DNA of 64,000 nt from an uncultured Pseudomonadota bacterium (GTDB taxonomy: Bacteria; Pseudomonadota; Gammaproteobacteria; Burkholderiales; Rhodocyclaceae), in NCBI GenBank assembly GCA_903951825.1, contig CAJBDJ010000026.1, positions 55,335-119,334 of the forward strand, in the 5' to 3' direction. The position numbers and the translations under genes were made by a program. The notes beneath the pieces were generated by a model, which saw nothing but the letters and a program-made list of their open reading frames with translations, did no database searches and was not told the DNA's origin. Positions 23,032 through 56,507 of this stretch are shown piece by piece (the stretch's first letter is position 1; each line of letters begins with the position of its first letter).

Positions 23032-23694
23032 ATGTCACTGTTTCAACAGGCGGTTTTCTTGACTACCGTCGCCAATCTCCGCGATATGCCGCAGGATTCC
23101 GTTCGCGAAGTTGCTTTCGCCGGGCGTTCGAATGCGGGAAAGTCTTCGGCTATCAATACGCTCGCCGGGCGGGTCAGGCTGGCCTATGTCAGTAAAACGC
23201 CGGGGCGAACGCAACATTTGAATTATTTCACCCTGGCGGCCGGCAAGTATTTTGTTGATTTGCCGGGCTATGGTTTTGCCAAGGCACCGGAAGCGATTCG
23301 TGCTCAATGGGAAGGCTTGATCGGCCCGTATTTGAGCAAGCGCGAACAGCTGGCGGGGCTCGTCGTGATCATGGATATCCGGCGGCCAATGACCGATCTT
23401 GATTTGCGCTTGCTCGACTGGTTTCGGCCAACCCGTCGGCCGATTCATATCCTGCTCTCGAAGGCTGACAAATTGAGCCGTCAGGAGCAGACCAAAACCC
23501 TGCGCTCGGTGATTGCGGAAATCGCCACCTGGGGTGATGCTGAGCTTTATTCGGTGCAGCTTTTTTCCAGTTTGAAGAAAACGGGTGTTGAGGCGTGCGA
23601 GTCTGTTTTGGCTGGCTGGCTGGATATCGAAGTGCGGGTGGCAGAAAAGAAAAAGCCCCCGGACAAGGGGAGTCCGGGGGCAAAAATGCCTTGA
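23032..23694 (+). CDS. engB: Ribosome biogenesis GTPase YihA/YsxC
   Basis: [40 protein letters not shown]. Confidence 0.95.
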
Positions 23695-23800
23695 CGAGGT
23701 CAAGACACCCGCTCAGGGAGGTGAAGCGGGAGACAGCACATGCCATCTGCTCGATAGGACGTGGCTTGTCGATGAAAGTTCTCGATAGATCAATTTTTAA
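23645..23800 (-). ncRNA. Putative small RNA with anti-SD loop; terminator overlaps engB 3' coding end (5' end uncertain)
   Basis: Minus-strand series of perfect hairpins: CCCGCT[TCACCTCCCTG]AGCGGG (23708-23730), CTTGAC[CTC]GTCAAG (23690-23704), GCCCCCGGAC[TCCCCTT]GTCCGGGGGC then TTTTTCTTTT (23681-23645). Confidence 0.6.
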
Positions 23801-40457: not shown

Positions 40458-40949
40458 ATGTCTCTTGTATTCGTCTTCTCGGCGCTTGCCGCCGAGTTTG
40501 AGAGAGACTATGAAGTCAAGGCGTGGGTGGAGACTGCTCTTGATTTACCCGCGGCTCCGCGCCAGAGTGACCTTGTCGGGTTTTATGTCAGTTCTGCTAC
40601 CGAACACCTTTTTTTTGTTGATGCCTCCAGTCTTTCTGTCGGAGAGGACGGTGTCGTGCGTTACGTTTTAGTCGTTCAGACGATGGGCGGGGCACGCAAT
40701 GTCAGTTATGAAGGTATCCGCTGCCTGACGCGCGAACACCGAATTTACGCCGCCGGTCGGCGCGATGGCTCCTGGTCAATGTCACGGAATAACGAATGGA
40801 CAAAAATTCAGGATGCTGTCGCCAATCGTTATAACGCAGCACTTTTTCTGGATTATTTTTGTCCCTCCGGAGGCATCGTGAAAAATGCTGAAGAAGCTCG
40901 GACAGCGCTGCGCAGTGGCGGTCACCGCGAAACAATTCTGGTGCAGTAA
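40458..40949 (+). CDS. CNP1-like family secreted protein
   Basis: Signal peptide then [32 protein letters not shown]...[23 protein letters not shown]; downstream of rppH. Start uncertain. Confidence 0.8.
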
Positions 40950-41572
40950 TGTCATTTGATAATGTGATTTTTGAATTCGATCGCGCCTTGCGAACAGTGT
41001 TTGCCAACTCCCGCAGTCAACGACCCGTGCCGGGCAATGATGTCCCGGAGGCCGTGATGTCTGCCGAAGAGAAGGCTCATGCCTGTGGGTTGATGCGCGT
41101 GAATCACTGCGGTGAAATTTGTGCGCAAGCCCTTTATCAGGGGCAGGTGCTGACGTCGCGGGATGCTGCAGTGCGGGACGCCCTGCGCGGTGCCGCCGAC
41201 GAAGAAACCGAGCATCTGGCGTGGACGGAGCAACGAATAGCCGAGTTGAATGGCCGTAAAAGCCTGTTGAATCCCTTTCTTTACCTAGGGGCACTGACAC
41301 TCGGGGTGGTTGCCGGTGTGCTCGGCGATAAATGGAATCTTGGATTTCTTGCCGAGACCGAGCGCCAAGTGGAGGCTCACCTTGATAGTCACCTGGTTTC
41401 GTTGCCTGAGCAAGATTTACGTTCGCGCCACATCGTTGATCAGATGCGCCTCGACGAAATTAGTCATGCCGAAACGGCGGTTCGGCTTGGCGCCGCAGAA
41501 CTGCCACCGATCGCTGTCAAGGCAATGAAACTCAGCGCCAGGTTGATGACCGAGACGACCTACCGTATCTGA
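40949..41572 (+). CDS. coq7: Coq7-type demethoxyubiquinone monooxygenase
   Basis: [19 protein letters not shown]...[13 protein letters not shown]...DEISHAETA diiron motifs. Confidence 0.95.
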
Positions 41573-41585
41573 CTCATCGAGTGTG

Positions 41586-42014
41586 TCAGCCCTCTTCGAT
41601 TATCTCGAAGTCGTGGGTAATTTCGGCTGTCTTGGCAATCATGATTGACGCCGAGCAGTATTTTTCTTTGGAAAGCTCGATAGCCCGCGCAACGGCATCG
41701 GGCTTGAGTTGCTTGCCCTTCACCAGATAATGAAAGTGGATATGGGTGAACACCTTCGGGTCTGCTTCAGCGCGTTCGGCTTGCAGGCGAACCTCGCATC
41801 CACTGACTGAATGTCGTCCCTTCTTGAGGATCAGTACGACATCAAAAGCGGTGCAGCCGCCAGTACCGGCGAGCACCATTTCCATTGGCCGAAAGCCGAG
41901 GTTTCGGCCGCCGGCTTCCGCTGCGCCATCCATCACCAGCGCATGCCCGCTCCCACTTTCGGCAACAAAAGCCATGCCGGCGGCTTCTCCCATCCATCTT
42001 ACTGTGCAGTCCAT
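41586..42014 (-). CDS. OsmC family protein
   Basis: PMEMVLAGTGGCTAFDVVLILKKGRHSVSGCEVRLQAERAE. Confidence 0.92.
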   Translation of the reverse strand: MDCTVRWMGEAAGMAFVAESGSGHALVMDGAAEAGGRNLGFRPMEMVLAGTGGCTAFDVVLILKKGRHSVSGCEVRLQAERAEADPKVFTHIHFHYLVKGKQLKPDAVARAIELSKEKYCSASIMIAKTAEITHDFEIIEEG

Positions 42015-42139
42015 TGATATCCCTCCGAGTAAATTTCATTCTACCGTATGCCCTCACCAGAGGTCGGATGCGGCGGATTGCTGCGGCGCATCAATTTTCT
42101 TTATATTCCCCGGTTTTTTGAGGGCTTGCGCTTTTTAAA

Positions 42140-42392
42140 AATGTGACTTTAGTTAATTAAAAAATAAAAAAACTTTGTTAATCAATGTTTTATAGTTTAT
42201 TTTATAAATTTATTAATTAATTTGTAAATTAATGACGCGATGCATCAAATATATTGTTTTCTTGCTTCGAGAGGTGCAGAATAAGAACCATTGGAACGGC
42301 AAGAAGGCAATTTTTCTGCGGTTCGTATTTGTCTCCTCCACCCTCCTCCTTTGGTGTGGATTTAGCGCGGCTCACCGAGCCGCGTTTTTTTT
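42140..42392 (+). ncRNA. Putative small RNA locus: AT-rich promoter region, CU-rich anti-SD segment, intrinsic terminator
   Basis: 42140-42240 almost pure A/T; 42333-42354 CTCCTCCACCCTCCTCCTTTGG; 42366-42384 CGCGGCTC-ACC-GAGCCGCG then T8. No supported CDS on + here. Confidence 0.6.
42366..42392 (+). terminator. Strong intrinsic terminator with no upstream + strand gene
   Basis: Perfect 8-bp GC-rich stem, 3-nt loop, 8 T residues. Confidence 0.9.
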
Positions 42393-42487
42393 GCCAAAGG
42401 CGCCGCAGACATTACGGCGCAATAGCTTAAGTCCAGCGAACTCGCCTTCTCGAACGACTAACAGCGACGACTTCGGCGCCTCACAGA

Positions 42488-42880
42488 TCACGCACGGGAT
42501 TGAGTCTGTATCAGTTCGACCTTGTAGCCGTCCGGGTCTTCGACAAAAGCGATGATTGTTTTGCCATGCTTCATCGGCCCCGCTTCGCGCACCACCTTGC
42601 CGCCACGTTTTTTGATTTCGGCGCAGGCAGCGGCGGCATCGGTAACGGCCAGGGCGATGTGCCCGTAGCCGTTACCGAGGTTGTAGGCGGAACAATCCCA
42701 GTTATGCGTGAGTTCAAGCACACAGCCTTCGGCCTCCGGGGCGTAGCCGACAAAAGCCAGGGTGAATCGACCCTCGGGGTAATCCGTACGACGTAGTAAT
42801 TGCATTCCGAGAATCTCGGTGTAGAAGGCGATTGAGCGATCGAGGTGGCCGACGCGAAGCATGGTGTGCAGGATACGCAT
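42488..42880 (-). CDS. gloA: Lactoylglutathione lyase (glyoxalase I)
   Basis: [46 protein letters not shown]. Confidence 0.96.
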
Positions 42881-55920: not shown

Positions 55921-56262
55921 TCAGGCGGCTTTTTTGGACAACGGGTTGTTGCCCCAGGTGTTTTGCCAGAAACGGTAGGCGTTTTGCGCGGCCATCAGGG
56001 AAAGTAGCGACATGCGTGTTTGGTGCTGCCAGAGCCAGGACAGGCGGGGCGCCGGTTTGAGGCCGTAGGTTGGCGCTCGGCCGATTTCGCTTTCAACGAT
56101 GCTGAGAAAGCGGTTGATGAGTACGCCGGAGTATTCGGTGCCTGTGTCTTGGCCGGTCAGTTGCTCGGCTTCGGAAATCGCCCGGCGCCAAAGTTTGAGT
56201 GCTAGCTCATCGCTGATGCCGGCTTTGCGGGCAATCCAGGGGAGAAGTTTGGGGGCTTTCAT
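55921..56262 (-). CDS. Conserved hypothetical protein
   Basis: 113 aa MKAPKLLPWIARKAGISDELALKLWRRAISEAEQLTGQ...; coherent protein composition. Confidence 0.7.
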   Translation of the reverse strand: MKAPKLLPWIARKAGISDELALKLWRRAISEAEQLTGQDTGTEYSGVLINRFLSIVESEIGRAPTYGLKPAPRLSWLWQHQTRMSLLSLMAAQNAYRFWQNTWGNNPLSKKAA

Positions 56263-56507
56263 GTGCTGACTCCTTGTAACTCAGTGGGGTGACCACTGGC
56301 TGTTTTGAATGCCTTGTGGGCAAAAGTTATTGTGCGGTGCACAAATTGTTTTGGGAAGTATACTTCCCGCTTGCTCGGGAAACGACGAAATACTCTGGAT
56401 GTTGATTGTTGCGTTGCACAATAACAACGAAGCGGTCTTGCCAATTTGTATGTTGATCGCTTGGCGGGCGCTATCTTTGCGTTTTTTCTCTCTCATTGTC
56501 GGGATGA

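Follow-up and report, generated by a model that had tools for sequence, protein, structure and literature searches.

The locus lies in a 64,000-nt stretch of DNA, here called the window, whose overall composition is 58% GC. The coq7 gene (40949..41572, plus strand; PF03232) is followed by osmC (41586..42014, minus strand; PF02566) and, further along, by a gene for a gloA-like glyoxalase (42488..42880, minus strand; PF00903). The first-pass annotation had described osmC and gloA as divergent, but both are on the minus strand and co-oriented. It was correct in noting an AT-rich island between them, with positions 42098-42231 reaching 81% A+T; these positions form the spacer between two PhaR-like boxes described below. 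The CU-rich segment that it had pointed out, CTCCTCCACCCTCCTCCTTTGG, is present at 42333-42354, and the terminator that it had placed on the plus strand was found at 42364-42386(+), with a stem of 10 pairs (7 GC) and a T run immediately after. The gloA-like gene was not found downstream of the RNA in 27 same-genus relatives and is therefore local at this site, perhaps as the result of a local rearrangement.

A covariance-model search of Rfam, as the first-pass annotation had proposed, assigned 42330-42393(+) to RF02278 (Rfam name Betaproteobacteria_toxic_sRNA) with 63.2 bits (E 2e-10) over the full model (1-64), above the gathering cut-off of 50 bits. The fold of the 64-nt RNA has an energy of -25.9 kcal/mol (z = -5.28), and no shuffled sequence folded as well; together with the RF02278 score, this places the RNA far beyond chance. 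The predicted layout, from 5' to 3', is a single-stranded UGUCUCC, hairpin 1, a terminator hairpin and a U tail, with the UGUCUCC end of this short form placed by homology to the short form of Bordetella S17. Seed site 1, UGUCUCCUCC (42330..42339, +), has its first 7 nt predicted unpaired in the unpairing profile, and G2-C9 are invariant across 23 diverse copies. Seed site 2, UCCUCCUUU (42344..42352, +), is placed in the loop of hairpin 1 by the fold and the unpairing profile. Hairpin 2 (42364..42392, +) is an intrinsic terminator with a U8 tail, identified by the terminator call and by compensatory changes at several stem pairs across families among the 23 diverse copies; hairpin 1 hardly varies and so is uninformative by covariation. 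The two-hairpin fold was seen in all 69 distinct RF02278 copies examined. The region is thus a free-standing two-hairpin sRNA of an already catalogued family and, judged by position and seed, the predicted ortholog of Bordetella S17. The earlier reading, a free-standing trans-acting sRNA with a seed blocking Shine-Dalgarno (SD) sequences, matches published RF02278 members (PMC5688073, PMC11722255). A second RF02278 copy in the same genome (56.3 bits) lies directly behind a phasin gene.

Other families with similar features gave no competing assignment. Anti-hemB (RF02837) was absent from the matches at 42000-42600 and MmgR (suhB; RF00519) had none there (both at E up to 1), while NmsRb (RF02877) scored 25.8 bits at 42330-42393, below its cut-off of 52. 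A single regulatory class had been suggested for this RNA and an engB-linked candidate at 23647-23733 (-). The CU-rich seed is indeed common to both, as is a terminator, but the engB-linked RNA is anti-hemB (RF02837, 73 bits), with three stems, and scores a sub-threshold 24.8 bits against the RF02278 model; a single class was ruled out, the two belonging to separate Rfam families. Across the order, 34 of 41 genomes had an RF02837 match.

The RNA and its setting are widely conserved. In an alignment of 28 same-genus loci the RNA is almost unchanged while its flanks drift, and osmC adjoins it in 27 and coq7 in 26 of these loci (counted from lists). A lack of conservation of both the CU-rich segment and the terminator in close relatives had been named as evidence against the sRNA; both seed and terminator are kept in close relatives having the RNA. 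At least 120 stretches from named GTDB genomes contain an exact copy of a 27-nt core, TGTCTCCTCCACCCTCCTCCTTTGGTG; Bordetella, Achromobacter, Cupriavidus, Ralstonia, Pandoraea, Herbaspirillum, Thauera and Dechloromonas are represented, and by our count coq7 or osmC is nearby in about 100 of the loci listed. Many named records from Rhodocyclales and Burkholderiales share the coq7-osmC-RNA order of the window genus, and Bordetella loci also have the coq7-osmC order. The same 27-nt core stands beside coq7 in two Bordetella loci, the B. pertussis sequence itself not being among them; S17 of B. pertussis is likewise beside coq7, and a 27-nt region of it was reported to be identical across Betaproteobacteria (PMC11722255). 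In an order-wide sample of 100 evenly drawn genomes, RF02278 was present in 68 (41 above the cut-off).

Alignment of 27 genus relatives and two outgroup loci revealed a conserved promoter of the form TTG-17 nt-CANAAT. In the window this corresponds to a -35 element TTGTTT (42254..42259, +), 17 nt from a -10 element CAGAAT (42277..42282, +). From the position of this promoter, transcription would begin at about 42289, some 7 nt past the -10 element, giving a predicted primary transcript of about 104 nt (42289..42392, +). Bordetella S17 has a long form that is cut by RNase E to a 67-nt short form (PMC11722255), and the transcript of about 104 nt is probably cut to the 64-nt form. The first-pass annotation had also listed a plus-strand open reading frame at 42232..42555. 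The frame is open, but its ATG falls within a PhaR-like box and precedes the predicted start at about 42289, which makes it unlikely to be a gene; as a protein-coding sequence it was rejected, its start codon being upstream of the promoter. Terminators with no gene before them can be remnants, and the hairpin might accordingly be thought a mere terminator of upstream read-through with no free RNA. Conservation of the promoter, the seed and both hairpins, and the fact that relatives are proven transcripts (PMC4603805, PMC5688073, PMC11722255), make this explanation scarcely credible. A toxic role, which the family name implies, is nearly as hard to sustain: cloned members of the family stop E. 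coli growth (PMC4603805, PMC5688073), but overexpression of S17 left exponential growth of E. coli unimpaired (PMC11722255), the RNA has a regulated promoter and housekeeping genes as neighbours, and no antitoxin partner was noticed. A toxin was rejected as the primary reading.

The predicted promoter lies downstream of two boxes resembling the published Ralstonia eutropha PhaR consensus, YTKNTGCRNYGCANMAR (PMC12849132), to which the Sinorhizobium meliloti PhaR motif is similar (PMC12542648). The distal box, TTGCTGCGGCGCATCAA (42078..42094), has 0 mismatches to YTKNTGCRNYGCANMAR, a perfect fit that chance would give 0.05 times per 64 kb; the proximal box, ATGACGCGATGCATCAA (42232..42248), has 2. 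Both fall within the 3-mismatch rule of PMC12849132. The proximal box is at the orthologous position in 28 of 28 genus loci and the distal one in 26 of 28, and in this genus they stand upstream of the -35 element, at about -49 and -203. The distance between them is about 157 nt in same-genus relatives and 154 nt in the window; 157 nt corresponds to about 15 turns of the helix, a spacing that would suit looping, although this is only a suggestion. The spacer (42098..42231) is AT-rich in relatives too, but its sequence is not conserved. In the alignment of relatives, the palindrome just upstream of the -35 element reads TTGTGC-NNN-GCACAA. The palindrome first derived, TTGTGCNNNGCACAA, proved to be only a genus-level form and was set aside for the published consensus.

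The genome from which the window comes encodes PhaR, the sensor of carbon stored as PHB granules (PF07879, 103.5 bits). A genome search found the palindrome before phasin genes and before a CoA-binding ligase gene of the succinyl-CoA-ligase type. In the genome of the window it also stands at the promoter of phaR itself and over the -35 element of the second RF02278 copy. PhaR-like palindromes precede a CoA-binding ligase gene in several genomes of the genus, which suggests a PhaR regulon wider than the phasins. Elsewhere in the window, the interval that separates the gene for a 113-aa protein (55921-56262, -) from a UvrD-family helicase gene holds two near-perfect PhaR-like boxes (56329-56345 and 56406-56422); the 113-aa protein had no Pfam match and may be a PHB-related PhaR target.

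Association of the box with the RNA extends well beyond the genus. The exact core TGCRNYGCA was present no more than 220 nt upstream of the RNA in 98 of 118 named loci, compared with 242 of 4661 random stretches from the same loci; in promoter register the figures were 52 of 118 and 11 of 4661. PhaR (PF07879) is encoded in 71 genomes of the order-wide sample of 100. The exact core stood upstream of 29 of 49 RF02278 copies in genomes with PhaR and of 0 of 22 in genomes without it (p 4e-7). Because related genomes do not contribute independent copies, the count was also made by family: a box with at most 2 mismatches to the full consensus was found in 16 of 21 families with PhaR and 1 of 11 without (p 4e-4). 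The box rate in genomes lacking PhaR equals the shuffled background. PhaR is encoded in every one of the 49 named genomes with the 27-nt core that were tested.

Some copies lack a box in genomes that encode PhaR, which favours a plain RF02278 RNA with a palindrome that serves a different regulator, PhaR being uninvolved. This is improbable, since the palindrome fits the published PhaR consensus and stands at phasin and phaR promoters, and no exact core preceded any of the 22 copies in genomes without PhaR. PhaR control is nonetheless not universal, as 20 of the 49 copies in PhaR-encoding genomes are without the exact core, and a strict requirement of the RNA for PhaR was rejected because 16 of 68 RNA-carrying genomes lack PhaR. 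No paper joining PhaR to RF02278 was found in the non-subscription literature searched; as far as that search extends, the link is new, while the RNA itself is of a known kind.

Other CU-rich RNAs were seen in the vicinity of PhaR-like boxes. Seven genomes from five families encode a two-hairpin RNA divergently from phaR at a distance of 0.4-0.9 kb, and PhaR-like boxes lie in the interval; four of these loci were searched and gave no Rfam family at gathering score. The genome of the window has a hairpin-plus-terminator candidate at C35:77470-77526 (CCCCTCCTCTCGAAA, then TTTCGAGAA, then the terminator). This candidate precedes a cytochrome c gene and is itself preceded, at 130-240 nt, by a PhaR-like palindrome. 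It had no Rfam match at gathering score, and a similar candidate is present at another locus.

Targets were predicted by searching for perfect matches to GGAGGAGAC, the complement of GUCUCCUCC, located 1-10 nt before an ATG. The search returned 38 sites in five related genus genomes. Among the 23 in the retrieved set that precede real open reading frames, 18 belong to solute-binding proteins (12; Peripla_BP_6 or DctP) or AMP-binding CoA ligases (6), with orthologs counted repeatedly. A reversed pattern makes a poor null, given the enrichment of ribosome-binding sites ahead of ATG codons, so the control was GGAGGAGKK, a matched SD of similar strength whose final two bases are incorrect; its four dinucleotides together gave 43 sites, and 0 of 11 reading frames (Pfam for 10, inspection by eye for the eleventh) were in the target classes. 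Predicted targets in the genome of the window include two branched-chain-type binding proteins and two ligases, one of them FadD-like. These agree with the published targets of S17, which are transporters and a fatty-acid ligase (PMC11722255), and with the carbon-transport targets predicted for the Burkholderia double-hairpin RNAs (PMC5688073).

Taken together, these observations are best accommodated by an RF02278 RNA, orthologous to S17, that is expressed from its own promoter, governed by PhaR, and blocks the ribosome-binding sites of genes for carbon uptake and activation, a reading to which we assign a probability of roughly 0.78. Because the promoter carries predicted PhaR sites, carbon storage probably controls the RNA through PhaR. 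The RNA would be transcribed from about 42289 under the control of PhaR at the boxes 42232-42248 and 42078-42094, and the 64-nt form would prevent translation by base-pairing to ribosome-binding sites through UGUCUCCUCC and the loop UCCUCCUUU. Blocking of ribosome-binding sites, with involvement of Hfq and RNase E, has been published for relatives (Bordetella S17, PMC11722255; Burkholderia, PMC5688073). PHB granules, as they form, would titrate PhaR off the DNA, as published for R. eutropha. If PhaR is a repressor, granule formation would allow the RNA to be made, so that its level most likely rises. The RNA would then turn down carbon import and activation by way of solute-binding proteins and acyl-CoA ligases, and a cell already storing carbon would import less. 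PhaR binding at the boxes, the sign of control and the targets are all predictions from sequence.

We lean towards repression, though not strongly. A box covers the -35 element in Bordetella, Achromobacter, Cupriavidus and Paraburkholderia records, as expected for repression. For S17, BvgA did not act on the promoter in vitro and the authors postulated a repressor (PMC11722255); given the box over the -35 element, PhaR is a candidate for that repressor. Activation is conceivable because the boxes of the window genus lie upstream of the -35 element, and their positions at about -49 and -203 resemble those at phaP3, which is activated by R. eutropha PhaR (PMC12849132). The RNA would in that case be made when PHB is absent and restrain uptake genes then. 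Such a role is unlikely, though less so than that of a different regulator: the box is in the classic repressor position in Bordetella, Achromobacter, Burkholderiaceae and the second copy of this genome, R. eutropha phaP1 is repressed from a site just upstream of its -35 element, and S. meliloti PhaR represses mmgR (PMC12542648).

A broader proposal, which we consider slightly better than an even bet, is that anti-SD sRNAs of Betaproteobacteria form a post-transcriptional arm of the PHB-sensing PhaR regulon, comprising RF02278, S17 (with PhaR as its repressor) and the unclassified phaR-divergent RNAs; carbon import would then be shut down as granules form. RF02278 has had no agreed signal, its members rising in biofilm, stationary phase or virulence mode, and PhaR offers a concrete, testable candidate regulator. 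If PhaR has this role, the sensing of stored carbon would be tied to control over the translation of nutrient-uptake genes in a large group of bacteria, among them PHB producers and human pathogens.

Among known systems, B. pertussis S17/S17S (PMC11722255) is the closest, sharing with the window RNA an RF02278-like seed, two single-stranded seed sites, a 3' terminator, a coq7 neighbour, its own sigma-A promoter, and transporter and fatty-acid-ligase targets. S17 differs in length (190 nt, compared with about 104 nt for the window RNA, which has a shorter leader) and in box position (over the -35 element in Bordetella, upstream of it in the window genus), and was studied as a Bvg-mode RNA with no PhaR link drawn. 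Burkholderia cenocepacia ncS03, ncS05, ncS27 and ncS62 (PMC5688073) are likewise RF02278 double hairpins with CU-rich seeds over ribosome-binding sites and carbon-transport targets; there are four copies in that species and two in the genome of the window. A common upstream motif was noted in that study, the text of which does not mention PhaR. Neisseria NmsRA/NmsRB (RF02877; PMC5362039) similarly have one anti-SD seed in a single-stranded region and a second in a loop, control central metabolism and are apparently toxic to E. coli, but are tandem siblings with an extra 5' stem. Sinorhizobium meliloti MmgR (RF00519) also has a PhaR-binding palindrome in its promoter and a tie to carbon storage (PMC12542648, PMC8401924); it differs in belonging to another Rfam family, in Alphaproteobacteria, and in negatively regulating phasins. 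The arrangement proposed here would, if true, parallel the PhaR-MmgR pair of Alphaproteobacteria in unrelated RNAs.
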